In this document: positions 50,460-52,076 of the stretch, piece by piece
How the letters are laid out: the number at the start of each line of letters is the position of its first letter
Numbering within the stretch: position 1 is the stretch's first letter
DNA from: Oscillospiraceae bacterium
GTDB lineage: Bacteria > Bacillota > Clostridia > Oscillospirales > Ruminococcaceae
NCBI GenBank assembly: GCA_031253495.1
Contig: JAIRWC010000034.1
Location: 1 to 52,081, forward strand
DNA: 52,081 nucleotides
Direction of reading: 5' to 3'
Made by a program: the position numbers and the translations under genes
The notes under the pieces: model-generated
Told to the model about the DNA's origin: nothing
Seen by the model: only the letters and a program-made list of their open reading frames with translations
Databases searched by the model: none

Positions 50460-52076
50460 TTATCCCTTTAATTCCAGCGCTTTCCTGATAAACGACGCGA
50501 AAAGCGGGTGCGGCTTATTCGGGCGGGATTTAAATTCGGGGCGGAACTGCACCGCCGCGAACCACGGGTGCTCGCTTGCCGGCAGCTCGATAATTTCAAC
50601 CAATTTCCCGTCCGGCGAAACCCCCGCGAACGCGAGCCCTTTTTCGGACAAGACCGCGCGATAGGCGTTGTTGAACTCAAGCCGATGGCAGTGCCGCTCA
50701 TAGACCGGCTCCCCGCCGTAAGCCGAACGCGAAATCCCGTCCGCGTTTATTTTGCACGGGTACGAACCCTTGCGGACGTTCGCGCCTTTTTCGGCGTCCC
50801 TTTGGTCGGGCGTAATGTCAATCACGTTTTCGCAATCCCCGCCCGCGCCGTAATCGACGGAATTGGCGCCGACTATTCCGGCGGCGTTCCGCGCGAACTC
50901 GACGACCGCCATGTGAAACCCGAGACAAATTCCGAAAAACGGAATCTTATTTACGCGGGCGTAGCGAACGGCCTCGATTTTTCCCTCCGTTCCCCTCTCG
51001 CCGAAGCCGTCGGGAACGAGTATGCCGTCGCACCCCCCTAATTTTTTTCCGGAGGTTTCGGGGGTTACGTCCTCGGCTTGTATAAGCTCGATATTCACGG
51101 CCGCGCCGTTGTTGAAGCCGGCGTGGCGAAGCGCCTCCATCACCGACAGATAAGCGTCGGGAAGAGAAACGTATTTCCCTACCAAACCTATGTTGAGCGG
51201 TTTTGAAGCCTTTTCGGCCTTGTCGACCATTTCGCGCCATTCGTCGAGGTCGGGTTCGCGGTTCTCCAAGTTCAGGCGCCGGCAAACGACGTCGGCGAAC
51301 CCCTGCTTTTCCAGCATGAGCGGAACCGCGTAAAGCGACGGCGCGGTCAGACAGGTGATAACGTCGTCCTCCCGAACGTTGCAAAAGTTCGCTATCTTCC
51401 CTTTCATGTCGGAAGACAGTTCGCGCTCGCTCCTCAAAACGAGGACGGTGGGCTGTATCCCAAGCGACAAAAGCGCTTTAACGCTGTGCTGGGTCGGTTT
51501 GGTTTTCAGCTCGCCGCTCCCCCCCACGAAAGGCACCAGCGTTACGTGTATAAACATGACGTTTTCACGCCCTTTGTCGGTCATAACCTGGCGGATGGCT
51601 TCCAAAAACGGCGTGCTTTCGATATCGCCCACGGTTCCGCCTATTTCGGTTATGACTATGTCCGCCGCGCCCCCGGCTCGGTTCGCGACGCGGTAAACGC
51701 GGTTTTTTATCTCGTTCGTGATATGCGGGATTACTTGAACCGTCGCCCCGAGATAGTCGCCGTTGCGCTCCTTGCTTAGGACGTCCCAGTATATCTTCCC
51801 CGTGGTAACGGAGTTGCCGGCGGAAAGGTTCTCGTCGATGAACCGTTCGTAATGCCCCACGTCGAGGTCGGTTTCCGCGCCGTCGTCGGTTACGAACACC
51901 TCCCCGTGCTGATAAGGGCTGATTGTCCCCGGGTCGACGTTTATATAAGGGTCCATTTTCTGGATGGTAACCTTGTATCCCCTGCTTTTGAGGAGCCTGC
52001 CCAAAGAAGCGACGGTTATGCCCTTCCCGACGCCGGAAACGACGCCCCCCGTTACGAAGATGTATTTCGTGTCCAT
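50460..52076 (-). CDS. pyrG: CTP synthase with an altered glutaminase active site
   Basis: Makes CTP from UTP, ATP and nitrogen. At 538 residues it is full length. The synthetase domain (1 to about 270) is intact: [49 protein letters not shown] and [18 protein letters not shown]. The class I glutaminase domain keeps Cys384 (GICLG) and Glu514, but the triad His is Arg512 (VQFRPEFKS where the family has QFHPEF). Other conserved sites also differ: VPDGFG for PGGFG (Asp356), LGFH for LGMQ (387-388), SVDY for STEF/SSEL (Asp408), and RHCHR for RHRHR (Cys463). The frame is open with normal flanks. It may use free ammonia (inference). First gene of the run; its promoter is outside the window. Confidence 0.95.

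Follow-up and report, generated by a model that had tools for sequence, protein, structure and literature searches.

In textbook accounts, the amination steps of nucleotide synthesis depend on glutamine. The closest analogue of the gene described here is vertebrate CPS1, which keeps an inactive glutaminase remnant and takes free ammonia, as we infer for the bacterial enzymes. In excerpts of PMC4655335, human CPS1 is described as carrying a Cys-to-Ser change and using ammonia only, which resembles the C379S species of the genus studied here (E. coli numbering). As in CPS1, a catalytic residue of the remnant glutaminase has been lost across a lineage, both in an H515R clade and in the C379S species. 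CPS1 differs in being another enzyme from another domain of life, and in the bacteria several enzymes are hit in one genome. An engineered E. coli CTP synthase, G352P, is reported in excerpts of the review PMC9138612 to have undetectable glutamine-dependent activity and nearly full ammonia-dependent activity. Table 1 of that source gives E. coli and L. lactis variants at G352, R356, T438, R105, D107 and L109 in which ammonia-dependent CTP formation is largely spared and glutamine-dependent activity is cut from 1.7-fold (D107A) up to complete loss (G352P). However, G352P is a single mutant made in the laboratory, whereas the natural enzymes combine several substitutions, most of them at other sites. 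The ATPPase subunit of the archaeal two-subunit GMP synthetase has no glutaminase-like (GAT) domain and can use external ammonia in vitro (PMC10526850, in excerpt), and GMP synthetase modules without a GAT are also found in the genus. Archaea encode a partner GAT, whereas the PF00117 search of four genus genomes (G020, G022, G048 and G070) gave only CarA and PyrG. Among the open-access literature matches listed, seen as excerpts and with subscription papers outside the scope, there was no precedent for a natural glutamine-independent CTP synthase.

The gene pyrG-A lies in a 52,081-nucleotide stretch of an Oscillospiraceae genome, the whole of which is called the window. Its product is probably an ammonia-dependent CTP synthase, which would form CTP from UTP, ATP and free ammonia. 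The best reading of the comparisons below is that pyrG-A would belong to a change from glutamine to ammonia that runs through the lineage. It resembles bacterial PyrG (TIGR00337; E. coli NP_417260, PDB 1s1m) in its full-length two-domain make-up and its synthase site; unlike bacterial PyrG, it has the His, Gly351, Glu403, M52 and R468 replaced, and glutamine use is predicted to be lost.

The pyrG-A Gene and Its Surroundings

The gene, its domains and its downstream neighbors are as follows.

50460..52076, minus strand: pyrG-A, degenerate CTP synthase; ORF of 538 aa plus stop, ATG start
51267..52067, minus strand: synthase (ammonia ligase) domain of pyrG-A, with 81 of 84 outgroup-invariant positions kept
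50484..51164, minus strand: class I glutaminase-like (GAT) domain of pyrG-A, still recognized by PF00117
48322..50454, minus strand: ppk1, polyphosphate kinase, the next gene downstream of pyrG-A
45991..48267, minus strand: polA, DNA polymerase I, beyond ppk1

The frame of pyrG-A is open throughout, and its product aligns over about its whole length with E. coli 1s1m (E 2.3e-178). Membership of the CTP synthases is indicated by the PF06418 (CTP_synth_N) match of 419.5 bits together with the conserved synthase positions, and a class I GAT domain is present C-terminal to the synthase (PF00117, 107.7 bits, residues 305-531). NCBIfam TIGR00337 labels the product a glutamine-hydrolyzing CTP synthase at 753 bits, well above the cut-off of 463, and an eroded 481-aa copy in the relative G045 also exceeds this cut-off under the same name. 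The substitutions are masked in databases because automatic annotation still calls such proteins glutamine-hydrolyzing.

The gene order ttcA-cca-275 aa-pyrG-ppk1-polA is common to the window and G020, which has an extra 363-aa ORF; the names of ttcA, cca and the G020 neighbors are presumed from recognition of the ORF starts. Copies of the same type as pyrG-A (type A) adjoin ttcA- and cca-like genes in the window, G020 and G022 and, judged from ORF starts, in G043, G046 and G070. An apparent third pyrG copy on contig C40 was rejected, being the overlapping end of the neighboring contig with identical DNA; it supplies the upstream neighbor of pyrG-A. This neighbor (L163 222-1049, 276 aa) has a weak DUF6734 match below the cut-off, and a similar 275-aa ORF adjoins pyrG in G020.

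Changes in the Glutaminase Half and the GTP Site

The positions concerned are listed below.

51921..51923, minus strand: Met52 to Ile, a GTP-site residue that is Met in 87 of 87 outgroups
51009..51011, minus strand: Gly351 to Asp (PGGFG to PDGFG), oxyanion side
50925..50927, minus strand: catalytic Cys379 (window Cys384), retained
50916..50918, minus strand: Met382 to Phe (LGM to LGF)
50853..50855, minus strand: Glu403 to Asp
50688..50690, minus strand: Arg468 to Cys (RHRHR to RHCHR), a described GTP contact
50541..50543, minus strand: catalytic His515 to Arg (window Arg512), codon CGC
50535..50537, minus strand: catalytic Glu517 (window Glu514), retained

Mapped on E. coli PyrG, the changes are G351D, M382F, T402V, E403D, T438N, R468C and H515R; Cys379, Glu517, F353, R356, R470 and L109 are kept. 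The Cys-His-Glu triad is thus incomplete, with Arg in place of His, and the conserved oxyanion-side PGGFG reads PDGFG. All motifs named in the first-pass annotation of this DNA (PDGFG, GICLGFH, SVDY, RHCHR and QFRPEF) are present in the ORF, and its statement that the nucleophile Cys384 and Glu514 remain was borne out when the codons were rechecked; the Arg codon CGC that it placed on the plus strand reads on the minus strand. Two of its five active-site changes need qualification. In the change from LGMQ to LGFH, Met-to-Phe is special, but the His (E. coli Q383) also occurs in intact genus relatives. The change from RHRHR to RHCHR is real but touches the GTP site rather than the triad, because R468 is a described GTP contact (PMC9138612, in excerpt). 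The same review, in excerpt, also links M52 to the GTP site. In this activation site, pyrG-A has M52I and R468C and keeps T51, E68 and R470.

Positions with at least 98% invariance across 87 outgroup CTP synthases formed the invariant set, 84 of them in the synthase half and 52 in the glutaminase half. In pyrG-A, 3 of the 84 (L16V, A22V and M52I) and 6 of the 52 are changed, which agrees with the earlier claim of a well-conserved synthetase half, and the clustering of changes in the glutaminase half is more than chance. K18, K40, P54, H57, V60 and D72 are invariant in alignment A2. Across 56 genus rows, no glutaminase-half invariant is changed in 36 and some are changed in 15, five rows being truncated. 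T51, M52 and E68 are identical in 87 of 87 outgroups. Of the 15 genus rows with GAT changes, 8 differ in at least one of these residues, versus none of the 36 rows without, a count in which two of the 36 lack all or most of the stretch and the five truncated rows stand apart. In a class-level control, each of the three positions is altered in 2 of 90 sequences; those altered at T51 and E68 belong to triad-changed rows, those altered at M52 to other rows. Position 109 in the L4 loop was considered as a loss marker and found weak, since 11 of 87 outgroups and some intact copies vary there too.

Loss of glutaminase function in the pyrG-A product is strongly supported by these substitutions; use of ammonia is what we infer from them together with the retained synthase half. 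Glutamine hydrolysis and the GTP switch are predicted to be lost or very weak because of H515R, G351D beside the oxyanion hole, E403D and the changes at M52 and R468. The synthase half is retained, including the tunnel residues P54, H57 and V60. The GTP cleft is the presumed entrance for exogenous ammonia in the E. coli enzyme, where GTP inhibits the use of ammonia; without the lost GTP contacts this entrance would stay open. As a point against the ammonia reading, the product is at an early stage of erosion, because Cys379, Glu517, R470, F353, R356 and L109 are kept. The retained Cys379 and Glu517 would also suit a working glutaminase, or an enzyme with a different amide donor, in which Arg or some other residue stands in for His515. 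This is very unlikely, since relatives lose Cys379 too (Ser in five species; Gly and Pro, as aligned, in the eroded G045 and G049 copies) and the alignment offers no obvious residue that could compensate. The first-pass annotation had proposed an altered glutaminase in three forms. The loss itself is well supported and ammonia dependence fits best of the three, while a different amide donor is without support and a regulatory subunit is possible though unlikely.

Triad Loss in the Genus and Class

A CTP synthase match is present in 52 of 71 genus genomes. No CTP_synth_N match was obtained in 19 of the 71, some of them near complete, and among the 41 genus genomes with completeness of 90% or more and contamination of 5% or less, six have no CTP synthase match. 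The genus copies split into type A, that of the window, and type B, that of a second pyrG on contig C17 of the window genome. Counting one copy per genome and type, scored on Cys379 and His515, the triad is lost in 10 of 51 scoreable copies: in 9 of 44 genomes for type A and in 1 of 7 copies (G049) for type B, the type B copies of G006 and G045 being cut before His515 and left out of the scoreable set. H515R occurs in the window, G020, G044 and G045, and C379S in G011, G019, G022, G048 and G070. The GAT domain is eroded, with frames open, in copies of G045 (481 aa) and G049 (458 aa), where Cys379 aligns with Gly and Pro; the synthase invariants are changed at only 5 and 1 of 84 positions, versus 26 and 28 of 52 in the glutaminase half. 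PyrG of G003 and G069 keeps Cys and His and has lost other sites. In G019, G020, G022, G048 and G070 (94-98% complete), no CTP synthase beyond a triad-dead copy was detected.

A tree was built from the synthase half after removal of ten GTP and L4 columns. Support of 100/98 was obtained for the window with G020 and G045, for G044 with G069, and for the Cys-to-Ser species with G043 and G046, the last two of which keep Cys. The branching order among these three groups is unsupported in this tree. At least three separate triad losses are indicated, in the window clade, in the Cys-to-Ser species and in the type B copy of G049. A single origin is not supported, as the three differ in mutation and place. 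The His-to-Arg change of G044 is probably separate from that of the window clade because its sister G069 keeps His, although a reversal could cost as few steps.

For the pair of the window and G020, dN of the synthase half is 0.098 with dS about 2.3, near saturation, and dN of the GAT half is 0.218 with dS not estimable. The GAT/synthase dN ratio is 2.2-5.4 in 12 degenerate pairs (three of them with a partner, G069, G050 or G003, in which Cys and His remain) versus 1.3-2.4 in 13 canonical pairs, with slight overlap. By these values, the synthase half is constrained and the GAT half is relaxed yet not free. The faster GAT half and the 19 genomes without a CTP synthase match would also be expected of a decaying relic, under relaxed selection after gain of a canonical copy and heading for gene loss. 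Such a fate is decidedly improbable, given that frames are open, the gene neighborhood is shared, constraint on the synthase half persists in G045 and G049 despite their wrecked GAT, and five genomes at least 94% complete have a triad-dead copy alone. An ammonia-dependent CTP synthase remains the preferred reading. The substitutions, their sharing among relatives, their recurrence and the low synthase-half dN, on which it is built, are read directly from the sequences.

At the class level, 90 CTP synthases were compared, being the 30 best-scoring and 60 others, part of all class matches. A trait unique to the genus was rejected, since the triad is changed in 4 of the 90 (C379S; C379G with H515Q; C379G with H515N; H515Q). 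In 78 more distant loci Cys, His and Glu are present in all, from search patterns that included the glutaminase half. Triad loss thus seems rare outside the genus, yet not unique. CTP synthases of other class families with Cys379 or His515 changed were noted at L242, L266, L279 and L280. PF06418 gave no match in 47 of 156 class genomes, a group that includes near-complete ones.

The Paralogue in the Window Genome

The window genome (1.67 Mb in 45 contigs) is 98% complete and 1.38% contaminated. The second pyrG on C17 is canonical (PGGFG, RHRHR and QFHPEF) and 57% identical to pyrG-A, which is therefore a paralogue, as the first-pass annotation had foreseen for the case that a canonical second pyrG existed. 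The canonical copy could still serve glutamine, and pyrG-A may be dispensable in its own genome.

With both paralogues in one genome, the pyrG-A product could be a regulatory or structural subunit that co-assembles with the canonical paralogue and tunes a mixed tetramer or filament, its own CTP formation being secondary. The GAT domain is still recognized and its dN between the window and G020 lies well below the near-saturated synonymous divergence, which would fit such a role. This role is nevertheless unlikely: the synthase positions are kept, and the degenerate type cannot depend on a partner in G019, G020, G022, G048 and G070, because no second copy was detected there.

Sequencing error or a chimeric genome bin would be another source of the pattern, in view of the contamination value and of the metagenome-assembled genomes involved (at least G020 and G045). 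The first-pass annotation had allowed for sequencing error; it had also proposed a comparison with relatives, and this revealed QFRPEF in the independent genome G020, whose protein is 78% identical, so the His-to-Arg change is not a sequencing error. GC content is 0.53-0.55 in the window and in the sampled pieces of C40 (15 kb), C26 (12 kb) and C17 (4 kb), and the tetranucleotides of these pieces correlate with the window mean at r 0.96-0.99 (other-species pieces at most 0.81); a chimeric bin is unlikely because these compositions agree. In G043, dead and intact CarA lie on contigs of 193 kb and 192 kb, which also speaks against an artefact, an explanation that is highly improbable overall.

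A general decay of glutaminases in the window genome was rejected, since five other PF00117 proteins, which we take from their motifs to be TrpG/PabA-, CarA-, GuaA-, HisH- and PuuD-like, keep their Cys and His motifs. PurL keeps its glutaminase Cys, as do CarA and GuaA. A GAT-less GMP synthetase was not found in a search of this genome that met no GMP synthetase C-terminus whatever, because contig C26 ends inside guaA.

Losses in Other Amidotransferases

The census of amidotransferases covered PF00117 proteins and PurL only, other class I glutaminases such as SNO or GATase_3 types being outside it. GMP synthetase lacks the whole GAT domain in G019, G020, G022, G048, G069 and G070, as do second copies in G045 and G046; the alignment begins at residue 214-218 of the full protein. 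The list of GAT-less GMP synthetases covers 25 genomes and was drawn from open-frame lengths of 313-359 aa, leaving off G006 (401 aa, aligning only from residue 217) and G003 (fragment kept).

CarA has Gly for Cys and other residues for His and Glu in G011, G022, G048 and G070, and second copies of G043 and G046 have the same changes. G069 and the second G045 copy lack the CarA GAT altogether, and that of G020 is eroded. Counting a genome with a dead and an intact copy as dead, the CarA triad is broken or the GAT absent in 18 of 59 genus genomes scored, in 4 of the 18 beside an intact CarA; three of the 18 (G052, G055 and G062) differ by Cys-to-Arg alone. The table left out G016 (CarA not resolved), G079 (truncated), G004 (Glu-to-Asp) and genomes without a fetched CarA. 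CarA cut to its N-terminal domain (141-164 aa) was seen at L299 3452-3892, L284 2927-3418, L376 and L388.

PurL has lost its Cys in 5 of 9 copies examined from 8 genomes, by Cys-to-Gly in G020, G022, G048 and G070 and by Cys-to-Asn in the second G045 copy. At the nucleophile loci L344, L345, L346, L347 and L348, changes of GICNGFQ to GIGNGFQ and similar were seen. The N-terminal Cys of PurF is kept in 8 of 8 copies aligned. PurF of G022, G048 and G070 has changes at residues that we presume to lie near the glutamine site; G020 gave no PF13522 match.

Triad-dead PyrG occurs with dead CarA in 7 of 10 versus 4 of 34 genomes (p 0.0008) and with GAT-less GMP synthetase in 7 of 9 versus 7 of 35 (p 0.002), and dead CarA occurs with GAT-less GMP synthetase in 14 of 18 versus 7 of 41 (p 1.4e-5), all by Fisher tests that ignore phylogeny. 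Exceptions with intact CarA are the window genome, G019 and G044; G019 combines intact CarA with GAT-less GMP synthetase. The window genome breaks the co-loss pattern, since CarA, GuaA and PurL look canonical and PyrG has a canonical paralogue. G020, G022, G048 and G070 have two PF00117 matches each, for CarA and PyrG, and in no case is the Cys-His pair intact. In these four, a glutamine-blind PyrG would be the sole CTP synthase found, together with dead CarA, Cys-less PurL and GAT-less GMP synthetase. CarA, PurL, GMP synthetase and CTP synthase would each have lost glutaminase function by different mutations. Confinement of GAT-less GMP synthetase to genomes with degenerate PyrG was rejected, as 7 of 35 genomes whose type A triad is intact have it as well. 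A glutamine synthetase-family match is present in 68 of 71 genus genomes, which are presumably able to make glutamine; this weakens glutamine shortage as a cause.

Two Enzyme Sets and Habitat

G045 has glutamine-type and glutamine-blind versions of four enzymes. Its contig C39 carries the type B pyrG (Cys379 kept, contig end before His515), guaA (GICYGMQ, QFHPES), an intact carA and purF, and other contigs carry the degenerate pyrG, GAT-less guaA, GAT-less carA and a second purF. Of its two PurLs, one is without Cys. In G044 the glutamine-type order is purC, purB, purA, glmS, glnA, an ANTAR response regulator, guaA and pyrG, the first six named by Pfam and the last two by similarity, and contig C26 of G000 has a similar run by ORF order and motifs. 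It is possible that glnA, glmS and, in G044, the ANTAR regulator mark a nitrogen-regulated glutamine cluster. A clustered glutamine set (glnA, glmS, ANTAR response regulator) and a scattered ammonia set could then be switched with ammonia supply.

It is quite possible, if still tentative, that a lineage of gut Clostridia abandoned glutamine as the nitrogen donor for nucleotides, that some members keep two switchable sets, and that pyrG-A is the CTP synthase of the ammonia set. If so, these bacteria would make C and G nucleotides from free ammonia and would repeatedly parallel the vertebrate CPS1 change. The enzymes should then resist glutamine analogues such as DON, and they would offer natural tests of glutaminase-synthetase interdependence and of the ammonia entry point in CTP synthase. 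Adaptation to an ammonia-rich gut would be a putative link to habitat. Only two genus genomes have been placed in termites here, and excerpts of PMC7024585 give Embiratermes neotenicus for the G020 sample and Termes hospes for that of G045, both humus-feeding termites. Clustering of glutamine-using genes with glnA and glmS was noted at L282 1161-11685 (G044 C46), L283 (G045 C39) and L281 (G000 C26).
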